From Helicobacteraceae bacterium (GTDB lineage: Bacteria > Campylobacterota > Campylobacteria > Campylobacterales > SZUA-545), in the NCBI GenBank assembly GCA_031268655.1, contig JAIRWX010000051.1, forward strand, positions 1-34,375: 34,375 bases of DNA, written 5' to 3'. Below are positions 24,820 to 34,375 of this stretch, one piece after another. The notes under the pieces were generated by a model. That model was not told the origin of the DNA. It saw only the letters and a list, made by a program, of their open reading frames with translations, and made no database searches. A program made the position numbers and the translations under genes. The first letter of the stretch is position 1. Each line of letters opens with the position of its first letter.

Positions 24820-25662
24820 CTACCCCTGCAACATCGAAGCGCCGAGCAAATTGGCTTTGTCGCCAAGCCGCGTTAGTTCTACCGTTACGGCGGATCTAAA
24901 TGCGTTGTTTGCCGCCGCTCTGGCGCGCGCTAAAACGCTCTTTTCGGATACCGCCACGCCGCCGCCAAGAACGATTGCTTGCGGATTAAAAAGCGCGGCG
25001 CTCGTCCGAACGGCGCGATCAACGCCGCGATAGAACCGCGACGCTACCTCCTTCGCCTTCGGCTCGTTCGACGCGTTAAGCTCGCTTAACGTCCGCTCTT
25101 GCAAGCCGTAATAGTCGCGCCATTTTCTTAACGCCGTTCCGCTCGCGCTGGATTCCAAACAATCCTCGCCGCCGCAACCGCATAAAAACGGCGTTTTTTC
25201 AAACGGAATATGCCCTATTTCGCCCGCGTTGTTATTCGCGCCGCGAATCAGTACGCCGTTTTCAATATACGCGCCGCCGATACCCGTACCGATATAGAGC
25301 GTAAATAGCGCCGAAACCTGCGATCTGTCGGCGGCTTCGGCTAAAGCGGCGCATTTAAGATCGTTGTCGATCGCGCCGTTTATGGAAAAACGCCGCCTTG
25401 TCCATTCGGTAAAATCCGCGCCCTTTAGCTCGCCCAAATCAATATTTGGCGCGGAGGAAATTTTGTTGTCCGTCGTTTGTCCCGCGAAACTAACGCCGAT
25501 AAAACCGATCGGATATTTGGCGATTGTCTCCGCGATCAGCGATTTAAGCTCCGTTTGCAGATCGCCCTGAATCAAGCGATCGTCAATCGAGACAAACCCG
25601 CCGCGATCGTCCAAAACGCCGCGCTTCAGCCGCGTAGCGCCAATATCGAAAACGAGCTTCAT
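24820..25662 (-). CDS. ROK family sugar kinase (glucokinase-like)
   Basis: Probably phosphorylates free glucose or a related sugar with ATP. The ATP motif DIGATRLKRGV is at the N-terminus, the presumed catalytic Asp is D101 in IDNDLKCAAL, and GTGIGGAY at 125-132 is the second phosphate motif. Zinc ligands typical of ROK proteins are seen: H151 in GEIGHIPF and C161, C163, C168 in CGCGGEDC. There is no helix-turn-helix domain at the N-terminus, so it is a kinase and not a ROK repressor. The start abuts the branching enzyme stop (TGAATG). As the last gene of the glucan operon it could capture glucose freed by the GH57 enzymes. Specificity for glucose is inferred. Confidence 0.85.
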   Translation of the reverse strand: MKLVFDIGATRLKRGVLDDRGGFVSIDDRLIQGDLQTELKSLIAETIAKYPIGFIGVSFAGQTTDNKISSAPNIDLGELKGADFTEWTRRRFSINGAIDNDLKCAALAEAADRSQVSALFTLYIGTGIGGAYIENGVLIRGANNNAGEIGHIPFEKTPFLCGCGGEDCLESSASGTALRKWRDYYGLQERTLSELNASNEPKAKEVASRFYRGVDRAVRTSAALFNPQAIVLGGGVAVSEKSVLARARAAANNAFRSAVTVELTRLGDKANLLGASMLQG

Positions 25663-27237
25663 TCAGTTCCAGACGTTGAAATGCGCGTCCCGAAACGCCG
25701 AATCCCTGCTCTCAAGCTCGCTCAAACAGCCTTCGTCGATCGCGCCGTCAACCATCGAAAGCAGTTTATTGAAATTGGCTATATGCGTTTTCGTGCGTTT
25801 AAGCGCGTATTCTACCGCCGTACCAGCGGTAATCAGAAAGGCCCAATCGCTCGCCTGCGCCAGCAACAGTTCGCGGCTCATCTGATCCAGCAGTCTGCAA
25901 ATAAGCGGGCTTGTCTCGCGCTCAAAACGCGCCGCAAGCTCGCTCATAGTATCCGCCATTTTGTGCAGGTGTTGGTATATCCAGTCGTTATGCGGATTGA
26001 TCCAGACGTCAAAGTAGCCGTCTTTGCCCCAGCTTGACGGGCTTGGATGTATCATCTGGTTTGTTTGATAGATTTCAAGATATCCGCTAGGCGTAATAGG
26101 CTCGATCTCCCTATGCTCGTCGATCGTCTTGAAAAGGCGGTAAATAAAATCGGGGCCCTCAAACCACCAATGCCCAAACAGCTCCGCGTCATAAGGCGAA
26201 ACAATGATTGGCGGACGATCCATAAACGCCGAAAGATGTTCGATCTGCTTCACGCGGTTAAAGTGAAAGTTCTCCGCGTGTTCTTTAGCCTTCGCGGCGG
26301 CTACGCTTGGCGCATAGACCTCTTTATATTCGCCGCCGCCCGTAATGCGATGGTATTTCAACCCCGTAAATACCCGCGTTCCATCCGGACAGATATACGG
26401 CTTAATATATTCGTAATCAAGATCGTAACCTATGTCGCGGTAAAAATCGCGGTAATCCACATCGCCGGGGTAGCCGCTAACGCTGCTCCACACCTGCCGA
26501 GAACTTTCGGGATCGCGTCCGAACGCCGCCACGCCGCTTGGCGTAAAAATCGGAGCGTACAGACCAAATCGCGGAGTGGGACGACCGTATATCAATCCGT
26601 GCGATTCCAAATAAAAAAACTCTATGCCGACCTCGGCGAGAAGTTTATCCACTCCTTCGTAGTAAGCGCATTCGGGCAGCCAGATTCCTCTGGGTTTTAC
26701 GCCAAAGAGCTTTTCGTGCGTCTGAACCGCCACGCGAAGCTGTACGCGCACCGCCTGTTCGTTGACGCTTAACAGCGGCAGAAATCCGTGCGTCGCGGCG
26801 CAGGTGATAATCTCGATCATACCCGCGCGCATAAACTTGCGATACCCGTTTAACGCATTGCCGCCAAGATTGTCGATAAAAAAACGTCTTATATTTTCCA
26901 ACCGATCGCGGTAAAAGTACGCCACGTCCCGATAAACGACGTCGTTTTCAAGCCGATCGCACTCTTTGCGGCTTAACTCGATCAACTTGTCTAGGTGCGC
27001 GGCAAACTTCTCGCGCAAAGTAAAATCCGCCAGCATTTCGCACAACGTCGGCGTCAGCGAAACGGTTATGCGCGTCTTTACGCCCTCGTTTTGGAGTCGT
27101 TCAAGATTCATTAAAAGCGGCAGATAACTCTCTATAATCGCCTCAAACAGCCAATGTTCCTCGAGAAAGTACTCGTGATCAGGGTGCTTTACAAACGGCA
27201 GGTGCGAATGAAGCGTTAAGGCGAAATAGCCCTTCAT
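25663..27237 (-). CDS. GH57 1,4-alpha-glucan branching enzyme
   Basis: Makes alpha-1,6 branches in an alpha-glucan. The opening MKGYFALTLHSHLPFVKHPD and the whole first domain match GH57 branching enzymes such as those of Thermococcus and Thermus. The nucleophile E189 is in GIWLPEC and the acid/base D350 in SPYDAELFGHWWFEG. A C-terminal helical domain follows, as in the 524-residue family form. It is not a GH13 GlgB: no DxxxNH or other GH13 motifs are present. The start overlaps the stop of the DUF4912 gene by four bases and the ROK kinase abuts its 3' end. Confidence 0.9.
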   Translation of the reverse strand: MKGYFALTLHSHLPFVKHPDHEYFLEEHWLFEAIIESYLPLLMNLERLQNEGVKTRITVSLTPTLCEMLADFTLREKFAAHLDKLIELSRKECDRLENDVVYRDVAYFYRDRLENIRRFFIDNLGGNALNGYRKFMRAGMIEIITCAATHGFLPLLSVNEQAVRVQLRVAVQTHEKLFGVKPRGIWLPECAYYEGVDKLLAEVGIEFFYLESHGLIYGRPTPRFGLYAPIFTPSGVAAFGRDPESSRQVWSSVSGYPGDVDYRDFYRDIGYDLDYEYIKPYICPDGTRVFTGLKYHRITGGGEYKEVYAPSVAAAKAKEHAENFHFNRVKQIEHLSAFMDRPPIIVSPYDAELFGHWWFEGPDFIYRLFKTIDEHREIEPITPSGYLEIYQTNQMIHPSPSSWGKDGYFDVWINPHNDWIYQHLHKMADTMSELAARFERETSPLICRLLDQMSRELLLAQASDWAFLITAGTAVEYALKRTKTHIANFNKLLSMVDGAIDEGCLSELESRDSAFRDAHFNVWN

Positions 27238-27920
27238 CTATCTCCCTTTGACGACGCGGAGTTGAAAAGCCGCCAACCGGAGGAGGTTTCGCCGGAACTA
27301 AAACTTGAAAACGGATTTAACGACATATCGCCGATACGCGCTTTTAGCCTCTCCTCCCGTACGACAATATCCAGACTCGACGGATTGACGAGCGCGTCCG
27401 GCGCCTCAAATTCGCTTGCGCGGGATTCCAGCTTCTGGCGATCGCCGTTTTTGGTCATCCAGATCTCCCAAGGACTTGAATGCATTCCCGAAGAGGGCGT
27501 GGATATGCGATTAGATGTTAAAATTTTGCGTTCGCCGTTTTCGTCGGAGACATACATCTCCGCTTCCATCTCCAACGTGTTTGGCGCGTGATAAGCGTAA
27601 TAGTTGCCCTTTGGAACGCGGACATAGACGCTCTCCACCTCTTGCCTTCTATCGTTTACGATGTAATATAAGCGAATAATCAAATTTGCGTTATTTTCGC
27701 GCGTAGCTATTTTGCGTTCCAAAACTTCGTCCGCGATCTCCCAGTAAAAATGCTGCGTTTCAGAGTTTACGGGCAATAAAACGAGTCTGTTTTCGTAATA
27801 GCGATCCGCGATAGGCGCGTCGTTTGAATCCGCCGACTGCGCGGCGGTTACGGCTGCGTCGCCTCCGCTTGATACGGACAATCGATCAAACTTAATCAGC
27901 GGATTGTTGTTTTCGCTCAT
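27234..27920 (-). CDS. DUF4912 domain protein
   Basis: Protein of 228 residues with no known catalytic motif. The segment from about residue 40 to 165 (YENRLVLLPVNSETQHFYWEI, VRVPKGNYYAYH, SSPWEIWM) matches the DUF4912 domain, which looks like an immunoglobulin or carbohydrate-binding beta fold and is often found next to GH57 and glucan genes. The N-terminus (1-35) and C-terminus (190-228) are low-complexity, Ser-rich and probably disordered. A strong AAGGAAAGGAAA precedes the ATG. It sits between galT and the branching enzyme in one operon, so a glucan-binding or scaffold role is plausible but unproven. Confidence 0.75.
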   Translation of the reverse strand: MSENNNPLIKFDRLSVSSGGDAAVTAAQSADSNDAPIADRYYENRLVLLPVNSETQHFYWEIADEVLERKIATRENNANLIIRLYYIVNDRRQEVESVYVRVPKGNYYAYHAPNTLEMEAEMYVSDENGERKILTSNRISTPSSGMHSSPWEIWMTKNGDRQKLESRASEFEAPDALVNPSSLDIVVREERLKARIGDMSLNPFSSFSSGETSSGWRLFNSASSKGDR

Positions 27921-27941
27921 ATCTATTTCCTTTCCTTAAGT

Positions 27942-28958
27942 TTATATGATAATATCTTTCAAATACGACGCGTAGGTCTCCGGCGCGATCGGATTGATTC
28001 TGCAACCGCTTGCAAGTTCAAAGCCGCCGCTCGCCCTCGATCGCGGAAGCAATTCGATATGCCAATGAAAAAACCGATCTATATGATGAAAATAATCTGC
28101 TTTATAGTGGTCGCGTTTGGGCGGCTCGGTGAAAAGCAGCAGATTCATATCGGGATTTTCCAAAGCGATTCCAAGCCGTTTAGCGCACCATTCCAGCGTC
28201 TCGCCAAGATCGCTTAGCGAGTCCTTGGTCAGCAAAGTAAAAGAGCTGTTATGTACGTTTGGAGCGATCCACGCCTCAAATTCAAAGCGAGACGCAAACG
28301 GCGCGAAGGCGGTAAAATAGCGACCTCGCGTCAAAACGCGCAGCTTCTTCTCCTCCTCGCTCGCGATCTGATCGCATAAAAGGCATCGCCCAACGCGGTT
28401 GTAGTGTTCTCTAGAGGTTTCAATCTGCTTCGCCAGATTAGGCGCGATAAACGGCAGCGCGACAATCTGCGAGTGACTATGCGCGATCGTGTTGCCCGCC
28501 TTTATCCCCTGATTTTTGAACGCCGTTACCGACGCGAATCGCCGATCCTGATAGAGCGCGCTGAAACGTTCCCGAAAGGTGAGCATAAGGTCTCGAAACT
28601 CCTCGGCGCTAAAAAGGCAGAGATGCTTATTTGGTTTTTGCTGGTCGATCACCATCTCGTGCGCGCCAAAGCCGCCAATGGAGGAGTAAACGCCGTTCAT
28701 AGAGCGAACGGGCGGCGTTTCTAAAGCCAATAGCGGAAATTTGTTTGGAAAGACCCGCGTCTTCCAGCTTGCGGCGATCGACTGGTTTTCGCGGATCGCG
28801 TAGATTTCTGGCGGAGTTTTACCTTCGTTGCCGGACAGAAACGGATCGCTTATCTCCGTTTGCGTCGGCGGTTCGGATTCGATCGGCGGCTTTCTCGTCC
28901 GATTAGGCGCGATCACAACCCATTCGTCATATAACGGTTGATGGCGAAATTCGTTCAT
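27942..28958 (-). CDS. galT: GalT-like nucleotidyltransferase (hexose-1-P uridylyltransferase or ADP-glucose phosphorylase type)
   Basis: HIT-superfamily enzyme that would exchange a nucleotidyl group between sugar phosphates. The active-site stretch AHSHSQIVALP holds H160, H162 and Q164; H160/H162 with a second FHWHIELLPR His-pair later match GalT. The N-terminal zinc pair of most relatives (C-P-F-C before GNE) reads D-P-F-L here (residues 38-41), while a later CLLC pair (C192, C195) remains. The residue before the HSHSQ run is Ala and the preceding triplet GNT replaces the more usual GAS. In an alpha-glucan operon, release of glucose-1-phosphate from ADP-glucose is as reasonable as galactose metabolism. 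I keep the galT symbol only as a family label. Its ATG overlaps the glucanotransferase stop by four bases. Confidence 0.8.
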   Translation of the reverse strand: MNEFRHQPLYDEWVVIAPNRTRKPPIESEPPTQTEISDPFLSGNEGKTPPEIYAIRENQSIAASWKTRVFPNKFPLLALETPPVRSMNGVYSSIGGFGAHEMVIDQQKPNKHLCLFSAEEFRDLMLTFRERFSALYQDRRFASVTAFKNQGIKAGNTIAHSHSQIVALPFIAPNLAKQIETSREHYNRVGRCLLCDQIASEEEKKLRVLTRGRYFTAFAPFASRFEFEAWIAPNVHNSSFTLLTKDSLSDLGETLEWCAKRLGIALENPDMNLLLFTEPPKRDHYKADYFHHIDRFFHWHIELLPRSRASGGFELASGCRINPIAPETYASYLKDIII

Positions 28959-30910
28959 AGTTTTTCCTCGACGATCAGCTTGATCACAACCTCGTCGCCC
29001 GCTTTCAGTTCGCCAAAATCAAGCGCGATCGCCGCGCCTTGGCAGGTTAAATCTATGCCGGCTTCGTTCTGGCTGACGGTGTATAGCGGATGCGACAAGG
29101 CGATAAAGTCTCGATCGGCTTTGAGCGCGATCGTCAAGTTCAGATAGGAATCAAAAAGCTCCAGCGTAGCAGACGGCGCGAACGAGGAGAATTCAATCGC
29201 GCTTTTAGCGTTGATCGTAGAGCGCGCCAGATCGGCGACGTGAAAGTTATGCTCCTGCGCATAGCGAGCGTCAATCTTAATCTTGCTCGATACGACTATC
29301 GCGCCGCCGTTAAACGTAATTGATTTATCGACGTAATCGCTTGTAAACAGCGTTTTATTCGGCGAGGTCTCGATGTTGTAGATCGCGTTAGCCAACGTCT
29401 CAATCTCGTCGAAACGCTGCGAAAAGAAGCGATCAAGATCAAACTCGCCCGCGATTATATGATCGATAAATCCTGCGCGAACGTAACGATCGATCGTCAG
29501 ATGTTTCAGCGCGCGCTCGTCGGCGCTAAAGGTCGTCTCGTGAATGGTTTTAACGCCGCTTTCGCCCTCTTTCTCGCCCTCTTTTTTCTGAATTTTATCG
29601 TGATAGGCTTCCAGTCGGCGCGTCAAGGTATTGAGCAGATTAAATTCAGCCGATCGGATATGCAAGCCGATCAGCGCCGCGCCTTTGGATTCAAAATCCG
29701 CTATAAAGCGATCGGAGACGATTCTCGCCTCCAAATATCCGTCCAGATTCCAATCCTCGTAGTAAAAACCGTTTTTAGGTTTAAGCGCGTTTTCGGCGGC
29801 GATAACGTAACGCCAAGCGTTATCGCGCAAATTTGGCAGATAAAGTCCGCCAAACGCTCCGTGCCACAGGCAGTCGTTGCACTGCGCTTTTAATAGCGCG
29901 TCCTGAAACTCGGCGTTATCGGACGGATTTTTCGCCGAAAGCGCGAGTATGCGGCGGTGAATCCTGGCGCTCTCTTCGTATTTGACGAGAAAATTTTTCC
30001 ACGACGCGCCGCGCGTGAAACGGCGATCCTCTTCGGATAGCCGGTTTTTGATCTCTTCAAATCGAATCGCGTCTTTGGCGTTGAGACTCCATTCGCCCAT
30101 CTCCGGATATGAAACCTCCGACGGATAGATCAGTCCCAGCGGCGCGACGTTCGCCTTGTATTCGCCGTAATGCGCGGTTTGAATGGTATCGCGCTCCAAA
30201 ACGGCTTGCGCAAAATTTTCCAGCCAGCCTTTTTCATAAACCCACTCGTACGTGCCTGGCCACACGCCAAATTTTTCGCCGTCGTCAAACAAAATCGCCG
30301 CGCCGTCAATTTGCGCGATATTTTCAACGACCGCGTGATGTTCCCAAAACGGCGCTTGATAACGCAGCGCCTTGCTGATAGGAAAAACGCCTATCGTCTT
30401 ACCGCCGCTTTCGGTCGTATACCAGCCGTTTAATCGCTCTTGCGGCGCGCCGGCGCATAGCAGATGATAGTCGTCTATGATCGCGTATTCAATGCCGCAA
30501 TCAACCATATCGCCCACGATCGAAGCGTCCCAAATCCGTTCGGTAAGCCATAACCCCTTTGGTCTTTGATAAAAATGCGTTTGCAGAAAATCGCCGAGTT
30601 TGTCGATTTGCGCCCTGCGATCGCGAGATGGTATCGAAGCTAAAATCGGCTCGTAAAAACCGCCGCCAAACCACTCGATTTGTCCGCGCTCGCTCATCGA
30701 TCGCATCAGCGTAAACATCTTTGGATCGCGTTTTTGGATAAATTCCAGCAGCCAGCCGCTAAAGTGCGCGCTGAACTTAAAGTTGGGAAAACGATCCATC
30801 GTCTCAAAAAACGGGCGATACGACTTTGCCATAGCGCTCAACACTACATTGTCAAAATTGTCGATCGGCTGATGCGAGTGCGCGCCAAAAAGCAATGCGG
30901 TCTTTTTCAT
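28955..30910 (-). CDS. GH57 4-alpha-glucanotransferase
   Basis: Transfers alpha-1,4-glucan segments between chains. The 651-residue length and sequence match the Thermococcus litoralis 4-alpha-glucanotransferase type: GAHSHQP near the start, GLWLTERIWD with the nucleophile E124, and FDDGEKFGVWPGTYEW with the acid/base Asp at about 209-210. The second half holds the DUF1925/DUF1926 beta-sandwich domains. I place the start at ATG 30910, where the upstream gene ends (TGATG); a GTG four codons earlier is less likely since family members begin right before the HxHQP motif. It works with the upstream GH57 amylase and the branching enzyme on one polymer. Confidence 0.88.
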   Translation of the reverse strand: MKKTALLFGAHSHQPIDNFDNVVLSAMAKSYRPFFETMDRFPNFKFSAHFSGWLLEFIQKRDPKMFTLMRSMSERGQIEWFGGGFYEPILASIPSRDRRAQIDKLGDFLQTHFYQRPKGLWLTERIWDASIVGDMVDCGIEYAIIDDYHLLCAGAPQERLNGWYTTESGGKTIGVFPISKALRYQAPFWEHHAVVENIAQIDGAAILFDDGEKFGVWPGTYEWVYEKGWLENFAQAVLERDTIQTAHYGEYKANVAPLGLIYPSEVSYPEMGEWSLNAKDAIRFEEIKNRLSEEDRRFTRGASWKNFLVKYEESARIHRRILALSAKNPSDNAEFQDALLKAQCNDCLWHGAFGGLYLPNLRDNAWRYVIAAENALKPKNGFYYEDWNLDGYLEARIVSDRFIADFESKGAALIGLHIRSAEFNLLNTLTRRLEAYHDKIQKKEGEKEGESGVKTIHETTFSADERALKHLTIDRYVRAGFIDHIIAGEFDLDRFFSQRFDEIETLANAIYNIETSPNKTLFTSDYVDKSITFNGGAIVVSSKIKIDARYAQEHNFHVADLARSTINAKSAIEFSSFAPSATLELFDSYLNLTIALKADRDFIALSHPLYTVSQNEAGIDLTCQGAAIALDFGELKAGDEVVIKLIVEEKL

Positions 30911-33012
30911 CAGATATACCACATTGCGTCAAAATCGGGAGTGCTAAGCGTAAGCGTGTTGTACAACGGTACGCGTTGAATAAGCGTATTTTGTTTATAG
31001 AGCAAAAACGCGACCTCCAGACGATCGCTTGGTTTTGTCAGCGGCGCGTAGAGCGCGATCTCCAGATTAGCGCCAAAAGCCGCTTTGATTCCCTCGTTTT
31101 GATAAGGTCGCCGAAGAATATCGCCGCTTAAACGCAGTCGGCGACTATAGGCAAACCCGCCCTGCGTTTCGATCGCAAGCTCATAACCGCCCGTTTTTAT
31201 CGGCTCTAAATTACCGCTTAGCGAAAAGTAGTAAAACCGCCCGTCCGTTCCGTATTGCAAGGTCTTAAATAACGCCGCCGAACTGTCCATAGCGGAGAAA
31301 ACTCTGCTTAGATCCAAGCTGCCCGCGCCGATCCATTCGTAGTAGCTGCTCTTGCGTCCGTCGATCGACGGAGAGATGAGCGCGCTCTGCGCGACGCGAT
31401 CCGTCGCCGACTCGACGCGCTTGATAGGTTCGGTCAAAGCGGGGTGCGGCTTTAGCCCTAAAAGTCTGTAAACCTGAATAAGATGGCTTCTGAAAATCTC
31501 GTCAAACTCGCCGGCAAGCGGCGTGTAGTGATCGTCGCCATACCACCAGAACCAGTCCGATCCTTCGGCGATCATCAACTCTTTAACAATCTGCGCTTTG
31601 GTCTTTTCATCGGCGTCGTTTAAGTTTTGCTTAGCCGTCTCCCGCGTTTGCGCCAGAAGCTCCCAGGCGCGGTTTTTCTCGCTGTGCCCCATCCATGTGC
31701 TGAACGAGCCGTATATCCAACTGCCCGGTTGCAACGCGCTTAACTCGATCTTGGGCAGATCTTTCAATCGATAAGCCTCTGGAATAGTTACCGTTTGCAG
31801 CCAGTCGGCGGCGCTAAGGCGCTCGTACAACGCGTTGAAAAAATCAAAGGCGTTGTTTTCGTAAAATTCCCACGCGTTTTCGCCGTCCAAAAACACGGGG
31901 ACAATCGCGTCGAAATCCACCGAATCGTATATGCCTTTTAACTTAGCCATAAAATCGTCGGCGGCGGCTTGCGCGTTAGAGCTGGAGTAATTAAAGCCAA
32001 TCAGATCGCTTAACGCTTTATCGCGGAACAGCACGCCGATCTCGCCGCTTTCGGTTTGCAAAAAGTAGCGCTTGTACAGGTCGATGCGATAGCGCGGACT
32101 GGGAAGACTCTTAAACAGCACGTCCTCGTCCGTACACGCAAATTCCGCGCCATATTTCGCAAGCAGATTCAAAGCTAAAACGCTTACCGATCCTTCGGCT
32201 GGCCAGAAGCCCCGCGGTTTTTTTTCAAAAATTTTCTCATACCACTCGACCGCGCTTTTTACATGGCGTTCGGCGTCCTCGCTAAAATCGCTCCACTTGT
32301 TTGGCGTGGCGATGTTGGAGTCGCTCTCGTTGGCGGCGTTAATATCAAGCAGAAGCGGCAAGATCGGGTGGTAAAACGGCGTGGTAAAAACGGCGATCCT
32401 GCCTTGTTCCTGCATTGATTTGTACAGCGGCAAAATGCCGCCGCAAAAAGCTACGAGCGTCTCTAACAGCTCGGTTTTTTCTAATTGGCTGAAACCGGTG
32501 CCTTTGGTAATCAGGCTCTTGATAAGCGCGTTTTCGCTTCTAAGCTGATTACCGCACCAGCTTAATAAAAAGAGAACGCTTAGATCGGTCAGCTCGTCGT
32601 CGTTGAAGTTGCGGATCGAATCTTTCGCGGAGTGAAAGCGGGTGCGCTTCTGGTACAACTCGTTGAACCGCCAGAGCGGCGAGATCATCGTGCGTGGATT
32701 GGCGAAAAAGCCTTTCTCCAGCAGATCGGTCCTCTCGTCCTCGCTAAGTTCTACCGACTCCTTCGCCAACAGCGCCAAAAACCGATCGTTTTGCCAGCCG
32801 TTTTCCACATAGCTTTCAAGTTGCGTCATCAGCGACGGCACAAGGTTGTAGGTGGCGCGTATATTTGGATAACGCGCCTGAATCCACAAAAGCTCCGCAT
32901 AATCTTTGATCGCGTGCAAAAACACCCACGGCATTAAAAAATCGCCGTTTCGCTCGTCGCGGTACCAAGGCTGATGCATATGCCATAAAAACGCTAGCCG
33001 CAGCTTTTTCAT
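30910..33012 (-). CDS. GH57 alpha-amylase/amylopullulanase-like protein
   Basis: GH57 glycoside hydrolase of 700 residues. The opening LAFLWHMHQPWYRD, the segment NLVPSLMTQLE, GFWPAEGSVS with the presumed nucleophile E273 and VFLDGENAWEFY with D376 are typical of the amylase/amylopullulanase branch of GH57. The C-terminal third (about 510-700) is a beta-rich domain. There is no signal peptide, so it acts in the cytoplasm on an internal glucan. The start is ATG at 33012, which overlaps the stop of the upstream gene (ATGA); an upstream in-frame start exists but lacks support. It may remove alpha-1,6 branches; exact activity cannot be read from sequence. Confidence 0.85.
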   Translation of the reverse strand: MKKLRLAFLWHMHQPWYRDERNGDFLMPWVFLHAIKDYAELLWIQARYPNIRATYNLVPSLMTQLESYVENGWQNDRFLALLAKESVELSEDERTDLLEKGFFANPRTMISPLWRFNELYQKRTRFHSAKDSIRNFNDDELTDLSVLFLLSWCGNQLRSENALIKSLITKGTGFSQLEKTELLETLVAFCGGILPLYKSMQEQGRIAVFTTPFYHPILPLLLDINAANESDSNIATPNKWSDFSEDAERHVKSAVEWYEKIFEKKPRGFWPAEGSVSVLALNLLAKYGAEFACTDEDVLFKSLPSPRYRIDLYKRYFLQTESGEIGVLFRDKALSDLIGFNYSSSNAQAAADDFMAKLKGIYDSVDFDAIVPVFLDGENAWEFYENNAFDFFNALYERLSAADWLQTVTIPEAYRLKDLPKIELSALQPGSWIYGSFSTWMGHSEKNRAWELLAQTRETAKQNLNDADEKTKAQIVKELMIAEGSDWFWWYGDDHYTPLAGEFDEIFRSHLIQVYRLLGLKPHPALTEPIKRVESATDRVAQSALISPSIDGRKSSYYEWIGAGSLDLSRVFSAMDSSAALFKTLQYGTDGRFYYFSLSGNLEPIKTGGYELAIETQGGFAYSRRLRLSGDILRRPYQNEGIKAAFGANLEIALYAPLTKPSDRLEVAFLLYKQNTLIQRVPLYNTLTLSTPDFDAMWYI

Positions 33013-34375
33013 GTCTGCGCGCCTTGCTTCCACTTTGAGATTTTCGCGGCGTATTCGGTAAGCGTTCGGTTGCCGGAATCCTCGTTTTTCGCTTCGATGT
33101 ACAGATGTATCGCCTCTTCATATTGATCGGGAATCATTACGATAAATCCGTCTTCCGTAACGATCTTAACGCCGTCGGCAAAGCTCACCTCTTTACCCAT
33201 AGCGTCCTCGCTGAATTTGCGCATCATCGTTCCTTTGAGCGAGATATCGCATGGAATCTGCTGATGCGCGAAATGGTATCTGCCGTTTGATACCACAAGG
33301 TTGCTCAAGGTCTCGGCGCTCTTTGACAAAAGCTCCACGATCTTCACGCTGGAATACATCGCGTCGAAGCTAAGCCCAAAGCGGGTAAAAGCGAACTCGC
33401 AATCTAGCGTGGCGACCGCGTCGTAATTGCGAAGCGTATCGGAACTAAGGTTGTGCATTTTGCCGCGCGTAATCGCCAGATTGGTTAATTTAGCGTCAAG
33501 CACGTCGGGGGCGAATACCGGCAGATACACCTTCAGTTTTTCGTCCGGTTTGCCTACGAAGTTGAGCAGTTGCAACAATACCAGCAACGCTTCGTGTCCT
33601 TCCAGAATTTTGCCCTCGTCCGTAAAAATTTCCAGCTTTTGCCCGTGCGGATAGATCAGAAATCCCGCCGTCAGTTTAAGATTCTTAACGATCTGCGCAA
33701 TGTTAAAACGCGCGCTATCGATATAAGCGGACAGGCGAGAGAGCTTGCGATCGTCAAAATAGGCGTCGAGCATTATGTTCTCCAGCCCCAGATTGTTAAG
33801 CGCCGCGGGATAGACCATCGAAGTGTTGCCAAATAGCAGATCGACGGCGATCTTGGGCTTCGCCGCGCCAATCGCCTCTATGTCGATCGTCTCGGCAAAC
33901 GCGGCTAGATATTCGCCGCTCATCGCCTGCGCCTCGTAGATATTGCCAAGCTCGTCGTTGCCAACCCTGCGAAAATTCTCTCTGAAGAAGATTCGCTCCA
34001 CGTTCTTTTCCGCGCTTGTGTTGATCGGCAGCCCCGCTTCGTCGTAAAACAAAATTTCGGTTTGCTGCCCAAGGTTTTCCGACTGTCTGAAATGAACGCC
34101 CGCAATCACGTCTCTGTGCTTGCTCAGGCTATAGCGCAAAACGGCGGAGGGAACAAAGTGCGGGTTTAAGATGCTCGCGCCCGCGCTCATCAAGCCCGAC
34201 ATAAACGCGCGCTTGAGCATTCGAGACGCTCGATGATAGTCGCGGCTGACATAGATGCGCGAATTGACCGGAAGCGTGCTGGCAAACGCGCTGGCGAGCT
34301 TGGTAGCCATTTCGCAGCTAAGCTCGATATTGGTGCGTCCTTTGACCTGTCCGCCTTCAAACAACGCCTTTTTGT
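33009..34375 (-). CDS. Phosphomannomutase-like domain protein, 5' part beyond window (likely NTP-transferase fusion)
   Basis: The frame is open to the right edge, so the start is not visible. The visible part, GGQVKGRTNIELS then SRDYHRASRMLKRAFMSGLMSAG, matches the phosphohexomutase half of the nucleotidyltransferase/left-handed beta-helix/PMM fusion proteins labelled mannose-1-phosphate guanyltransferase. The place of the catalytic phosphoserine loop reads AGVHFRQSE (34077-34100), without the T-A-S-H-N-P-type serine. The metal loop reads IYPHGQKLE near 33633-33656, without the D-x-D-x-D-R motif. The domain is therefore probably inactive as a mutase and may be regulatory or binding. It leads into the GH57 amylase by a four-base overlap, so it is cotranscribed. 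The missing N-terminal half would settle whether it is a sugar nucleotidyltransferase. Confidence 0.8.
   Translation of the reverse strand, partial: KKALFEGGQVKGRTNIELSCEMATKLASAFASTLPVNSRIYVSRDYHRASRMLKRAFMSGLMSAGASILNPHFVPSAVLRYSLSKHRDVIAGVHFRQSENLGQQTEILFYDEAGLPINTSAEKNVERIFFRENFRRVGNDELGNIYEAQAMSGEYLAAFAETIDIEAIGAAKPKIAVDLLFGNTSMVYPAALNNLGLENIMLDAYFDDRKLSRLSAYIDSARFNIAQIVKNLKLTAGFLIYPHGQKLEIFTDEGKILEGHEALLVLLQLLNFVGKPDEKLKVYLPVFAPDVLDAKLTNLAITRGKMHNLSSDTLRNYDAVATLDCEFAFTRFGLSFDAMYSSVKIVELLSKSAETLSNLVVSNGRYHFAHQQIPCDISLKGTMMRKFSEDAMGKEVSFADGVKIVTEDGFIVMIPDQYEEAIHLYIEAKNEDSGNRTLTEYAAKISKWKQGAQT

Follow-up and report, generated by a model that had tools for sequence, protein, structure and literature searches.

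A 34,375-base contig from a Helicobacteraceae bacterium (GenBank JAIRWX010000051.1; C67 in our numbering), analysed here over its whole length as the window, carries seven genes of what is probably a cytoplasmic operon for glycogen synthesis and turnover, in which nucleoside-diphosphate glucose (NDP-glucose) would come from a fusion protein, from an enzyme resembling ADP-glucose phosphorylase, or from both, instead of from GlgC. The enzyme types are mostly known; the more interesting element is a protein, tied to glycogen genes, in which a nucleotidyltransferase is joined to a phosphohexomutase half that is conserved but non-catalytic. We call that second half dead in the sense of lacking mutase chemistry only. 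The genome amounts to 1.63 Mb in 76 contigs and is 90% complete.

The fusion gene is split by the assembly. The first-pass annotation had advised looking beyond the right edge of the window, where there is nothing to read since the window is the complete contig; the continuation was found on another contig, C22. The edge cuts an open reading frame (ORF) with a PGM_PMM_I domain, and intact orthologues in relatives are about 835 aa long and are preceded by a short glycogen phosphorylase. On C22 an open frame of 381 codons exits at base 1 with ...SSNITWGDKY, the frame on the window side begins ...KKALFEGGQVKG, and an intact relative reads ...SNNIAWGDKYKKALFEGGQVKG. Because the two frames match the intact relative, we take the operon to consist of glgP, the fusion gene and the downstream genes, interrupted within the fusion gene. 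The complete protein would join an NTP_transferase domain, a left-handed beta-helix (LbH) and a phosphohexomutase-like half, and the ORF at the edge is its C-terminal half. The initial label of this ORF, a PMM-like protein, thus holds for the phosphohexomutase fold, but not for a separate gene or for a mutase active site, whose key residues are lost.

The N-terminal half has the features of an NTP_transferase, matching PF00483 and carrying GGFGTR, PKP and EKP motifs that are more than 95% conserved. Its closest solved relative is 8x7s (175 bits), annotated as a UTP-glucose-1-phosphate uridylyltransferase, and it is also related to the GDP-mannose pyrophosphorylases 7x8j, 8yre and 7d72; any nucleotide specificity given to the fusion is a prediction. 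Unfused nucleotidyltransferases of about 390-412 aa that score like this half also occur (G220:C159, G201:C19, G257:C14, G232:C54 and G018:C70, each given as genome and contig), mostly in genomes that hold a fused copy as well, and should be useful for dating the fusion.

Why keep a mutase domain that has lost its active site? With the intact GlmM and PMM/PGM of the same genome as reference, we compared 78 fusion homologues at the four catalytic loops of the phosphohexomutases: phosphoserine (TASHNP), metal (DGDxDR), sugar (GExSGH) and phosphate (RxSGTE). The three metal-binding aspartates are kept in 3/78, 0/78 and 0/78 sequences, and neither the sugar-loop glutamate nor the phosphate-loop arginine survives in any. 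The serine position is still S in 40 of the 78, but within FRQS rather than TASHNP. This loss across the family rules out the identity of an active, PMM-like mutase. The fold itself is retained: the fusion model matches the phosphohexomutases of T. kodakarensis and P. horikoshii with TM-scores of 0.87-0.88 over the target, and nucleotidyltransferases were matched as well. In place of the lost loops the family has motifs of its own, H/YFRQ, YPxGQ, ATxDGNFAFTEF and IPDQY, of which IPDQY occupies the former phosphate-binding loop (P in 78/78, D in 77/78), and FRQ and YPxGQ, mostly conserved, the former serine and metal loops. Since the former active-site positions are so strongly conserved, the alignment suggests a kept pocket or interface. 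We infer that the dead half serves as a sugar-phosphate sensor or an assembly domain.

Bacterial glycogen synthesis is usually entered, and regulated, through GlgC. At the TIGR02091 cut-off of 424.9 bits, no canonical GlgC was found in 40 relatives or in 298 genomes of the phylum that are at least 90% complete. The fusion is not a GlgC by this measure either, scoring 141 bits in the genome studied and 92-148 bits in relatives, far under the cut-off. A PF00483 search of this genome returned only the fusion and two further proteins, ManC-like and RfbF-like by our reading of the ORFs, with no GlgC or GalU. Across 40 genomes, GlgA and the fusion occur together in 24, are both missing from 12 and are discordant in 2+2 (Fisher p = 1.3e-6, uncorrected for kinship); the two that have GlgA but no fusion are assemblies of 60% and 83% completeness. 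Given the missing GlgC, the short list of PF00483 proteins and the co-occurrence with GlgA, the glucosyl donor probably comes from the fusion or from the GalT-like enzyme of the operon.

The association with glycogen genes extends well beyond this genome. Fusion loci span Campylobacterota, Aquificota, Deferribacterota and Geobacter-type bacteria, and in 75 of the 77 loci with enough sequence the fusion lies directly 5' of a GH57 amylase-like gene. The same gene set together with GlgP, often also with GlgA and GlgB, is found in Campylobacterota, Aquificota and Deferribacterota, and many fusion loci include one or two GlgA genes. In one locus (L119) the GH57 amylase-like gene and one GlgA gene are each split into two ORFs and the glucanotransferase is short, through decay or assembly indels. 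The fusion tree follows the phyla, with the window's family basal in the Campylobacterota clade (SH-aLRT 97), and the operon is carried by 6/6 genomes of the same genus. The first-pass annotation had judged the operon native, which this distribution supports; conservation in genus and family together with the fusion tree rules out a recent import. The closest named relatives are other metagenome-assembled genomes labelled 'Helicobacteraceae bacterium', with 81-73% identity in the GH57 amylase-like protein, and going by their isolate codes we believe them to be of termite-gut origin.

All three GH57 enzymes exceed the Pfam cut-off and have the catalytic glutamate nucleophile and aspartate acid/base intact, at E189/D350 (17/17 homologues), E128/D214 (58/58) and E280/D383 (78/78). 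The predicted 4-alpha-glucanotransferase has the complete domain set of GH57, AmyA-A_glucT_m and AmyA-gluTrfs_C, and its only match in the PDB is the T. litoralis 4-alpha-glucanotransferase 1k1w (441 bits); the amylase-like enzyme is closest to 9jlq (345 bits). The third enzyme can be aligned with hardly a gap to AmyC of T. maritima (2b5d, 539 bits) and has none of the insertions of the Thermococcales enzymes. High-branching GH57 enzymes are recognised by a flexible, tyrosine-bearing loop, and loop-less ones favour alpha-1,4 transfer (PMC10346327); the operon's branching-enzyme homologue lacks this loop of 17-20 residues. AmyC-type enzymes branch weakly, with hydrolysis making up as much as 30% of their activity (PMC6616209).

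Where, then, would branches come from? An earlier claim held that classical GH13 enzymes were absent and that GH57 enzymes stood in for them. GlgB is indeed missing from the window, but not from the genome: a canonical GH13 GlgB on contig C63 (931 bits against a cut-off of 741 for NF003811; 869.6 against 464 for TIGR01515) rules out its absence, and the same holds for 6/6 same-genus genomes, so the idea of an all-GH57 replacement fails. There is no separate full GH13 glycogen operon; GlgA (on contig C50) and GlgB are lone genes away from the operon. Because loop-less, AmyC-type enzymes branch weakly, GlgB probably does most of the branching and the GH57 homologue would remodel. Among fusion loci, 29 include a GH13 GlgB gene, 16 the GH57 homologue and none both. 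The GH13 search of the genome gave GlgB only, hence no GlgX, and no GH77 MalQ was found. With GlgB the only GH13 enzyme, debranching would have to fall to the GH57 amylase-like enzyme or to a type outside the search, such as GH133. The genes beside glgA (L039 2674-8435, G000:C50) look, by reading, like a cluster for nonulosonic (sialic-type) acid and glycosyl transfer, with NeuB/NeuA-like and two heptosyltransferase-like proteins.

The remaining three proteins are an enzyme of the GalT/HIT superfamily, a DUF4912 protein and a sugar kinase. The GalT-like protein is nearest in the PDB to the plant protein At5g18200 (1z84, 181.6 bits), which we take to be an ADP-glucose phosphorylase, against 47 bits for E. 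coli GalT. Its HSHSQ site, of the HxHxQ form expected of an At5g18200-type enzyme, is intact, with H160 conserved in 64/64, H162 in 63/64 and Q164 in 64/64 homologues. The original GalT-like label is therefore right for the superfamily, but the galactose type, with its far lower score, is rejected as the first choice. The first metal-binding pair, CPFC, has become DPFL and the second CxxC is kept; D stands at the first position in 5/64 homologues. DUF4912 is predicted to form an Ig/FN3-like beta-sandwich at about residues 38-140 (AlphaFold pLDDT 82-92 in the core), the remainder being disordered, and in Foldseek its core matches FN3 folds at an E-value of about 1e-4. We propose that it might be a glucan-binding or scaffold subunit, with which the model is compatible though not specifically so. 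DUF4912 proteins of Deferribacterota and Aquificota (loci L068, L069, L076, L081, L085, L088 and L099) have a short N-terminal Rho_N/SAP-like helical segment, for example MKLDKLTKKELMDLAAAKKIKGRSKMGKEELIAAL, which those of the window's family lack. In the ROK kinase, the ExGH and CGC..C motifs are present in nearly all homologues.

Table 1. Genes of the operon in transcription order; positions are in the window unless contig C22 is named.
Feature	Position	Strand	Length and evidence
Short glycogen phosphorylase GlgP	C22:1325-2980		5' of the fusion; TIGR02094 446 bits, cut-off 191.7
5' part of the fusion gene	C22:1-1143		381 codons; PF00483 at 1.8e-54
3' part of the fusion gene (NTP_transferase + LbH + pseudo-phosphohexomutase)	33009..34375, open at contig end	-	PGM_PMM_I (Pfam)
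GH57 amylase/amylopullulanase-like enzyme	30910..33033 (likely ATG start 33012)	-	707 aa; PF03065 1e-61
GH57 4-alpha-glucanotransferase	28955..30922 (likely ATG start 30910)	-	655 aa; PF03065+PF09094+PF09095
GalT/HIT-superfamily nucleotidylyltransferase, ADP-glucose-phosphorylase-like	27942..28958	-	338 aa; catalytic HSHSQ
DUF4912 protein	27234..27920	-	228 aa; PF16258 1.3e-13
GH57 branching-enzyme homologue, loop-less AmyC type	25663..27237	-	524 aa; PF03065+PF09210 (GH57+BE_C)
ROK-family sugar kinase (probable glucokinase)	24820..25662	-	280 aa; PF00480 7.6e-44

The seven minus-strand ORFs of the window, three of them GH57, run in near contact from 34375 down to 24820 (Table 1). From the ROK kinase to the PGM_PMM_I ORF the junctions are 0, -4, +21, -4, -13 and -25 bases, and the internal ATG starts turn the last two into -1 and -4. 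Coordinates, junctions and Pfam matches thus agree with the initial description of a tightly packed, same-strand set of seven genes with three GH57 members, and gene content and domains with that of an alpha-glucan operon rich in GH57. CGATCG is the most frequent 6-mer of the window (103 copies, 3.0/kb, about 12x the mononucleotide expectation), although not above the maximal-order Markov expectation; the most frequent 8-mer (21 copies) is GCGATCGC, known from cyanobacteria as HIP1. CGATCG is also dense in same-family loci and absent from low-GC relatives. Its density had been put at about 10 per kb, which is too high (3.2/kb in the operon and 2.9/kb in the rest of the window), but the conclusion that the operon resembles the rest of its contig is sound.

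In the pathway we propose, the N-terminal half of the fusion would convert glucose-1-phosphate to NDP-glucose for GlgA, replacing GlgC, and the dead mutase half would sense sugar phosphates or serve in assembly. GlgA would elongate the chains, GlgB would introduce most branches, and the loop-less GH57 enzyme would remodel and hydrolyse chains. For breakdown, GlgP would free glucose-1-phosphate, the GH57 amylase-like enzyme and the glucanotransferase would trim limit dextrins without GlgX and MalQ, and the ROK kinase would phosphorylate the released glucose. The GalT-like enzyme may interconvert ADP-glucose and glucose-1-phosphate, and DUF4912 may bind glucan or tether enzymes. More tentatively, and with less confidence than we have in the operon's role, we speculate that Campylobacterota, Aquificota and Deferribacterota share a GlgC-less glycogen route in which the dead mutase is a built-in glucose-phosphate sensor that gates the nucleotidyltransferase, replacing the allostery of GlgC.

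Several points weigh against this interpretation. The join of C22 and C67 rests on reading frame and synteny, without overlapping sequence. In the phylum-wide GlgC search, the B. subtilis control gave no match at 1e-25 although strain 168 has glgC, so sensitivity was imperfect; and at 90% completeness GlgC, GalU or GlgX could be absent from this assembly by chance, although this is less easily said of 40 or 298 genomes. The activities of the operon's proteins are all predicted. Having a UTP-glucose-1-phosphate uridylyltransferase and GDP-mannose pyrophosphorylases as its closest solved relatives, the fusion could act on a different sugar or nucleotide, and GlgA matches an 'ADP-glucose type' model, so that UDP-glucose, if that is the product, might be no substrate for it.

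Three other explanations bear on the function of the operon or of its fusion. The mutase half may not be dead at all, and its invariant H/YFRQ, YPxGQ and IPDQY motifs may form a new active site for another chemistry or ligand. The conservation of these motifs, including the PD of IPDQ in 77-78 of 78 sequences, and the pocket it suggests fit this idea; we nevertheless think it unlikely, as metal aspartates are down to 3, 0 and 0 of 78, the sugar-binding glutamate to 0/78, and no catalytic machinery was recognised in this half. The operon as a whole might instead degrade imported or host-derived dextrins, as a maltodextrin or starch utilisation system with no storage polymer of its own. An amylase-like GH57 enzyme, a 4-alpha-glucanotransferase, a phosphorylase and a kinase also characterise maltodextrin catabolism, and the branching-enzyme homologue belongs to the AmyC type, which is partly hydrolytic (PMC6616209). 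Against this stand the fact that the operon encodes neither a transporter nor a secreted enzyme, the GH57 catalytic domains that begin at about residue 10-20 and leave no space for a signal peptide, the nucleotidyltransferase beside GlgP and the co-occurrence with GlgA across genomes, which make such a role quite improbable. Very unlikely, in our judgement, is that the fusion supplies surface polysaccharide synthesis with GDP-mannose or a similar nucleotide sugar and that its glucan neighbours are fortuitous. Its N-terminal half is related to GDP-mannose pyrophosphorylases and its architecture is phosphomannomutase-like, but the same neighbour recurs in 75/77 loci across at least four phyla, GlgA co-occurs, elsewhere the genome encodes a ManC-like enzyme as well as an intact PMM/PGM, and the mutase half is without a mutase active site.

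One sentence in the literature notes 'glycogen production and utilization' clusters in vent Epsilonproteobacteria (PMC3958643), and our search of open-access papers found no description of the operon or of the fusion's role, which is weak negative evidence. If the proposal is true, it would reveal a second regulated entry to glycogen, on the scale of a phylum, and show plainly how an enzyme can become a sensor. It also gives free-living Campylobacterota and their gut relatives a storage pathway that can be tested, and corrects the automatic 'phosphomannomutase' label of the fusion's mutase domain.

How does this system compare with known ones? With the classical GlgC-GlgA-GlgB-GlgP-GlgX system of E. 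coli, this genome shares GlgA, GH13 GlgB and a glycogen phosphorylase. By contrast, no GlgC, GlgX or MalQ was found, we attribute activation to the fusion, the GalT-like enzyme or both, and trimming and transfer to GH57 enzymes, and the phosphorylase is of the short type (TIGR02094). The GH57 glycogen sets of Thermococcales and Thermotogales, with a branching enzyme, a 4-alpha-glucanotransferase and a short GlgP, contain the same GH57 kinds, whereas the operon here, from a phylum whose more familiar members are Helicobacter and Campylobacter, also holds the fusion, the GalT-like enzyme and DUF4912. Petrotoga mobilis, like the window's genus, has both GH13 and GH57 branching enzymes in one genome (PMC6629080, PMC10708623). 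In the fusion loci, unlike in Petrotoga, the two families alternate within the local cluster. The fusion itself has the domain order, length and PGM fold of proteins annotated as mannose-1-phosphate guanylyltransferase/phosphomannomutase, but its mutase half is without key active-site-loop residues and its position in glycogen clusters is fixed. A further parallel is provided by GMPPA/GMPPB, the eukaryotic GDP-mannose pyrophosphorylase and its regulatory homologue, in which a nucleotidyltransferase likewise has a partner that binds sugar and presumably does no catalysis. That partner is another nucleotidyltransferase subunit, whereas in the fusion its place is taken by a dead phosphohexomutase within the same chain.

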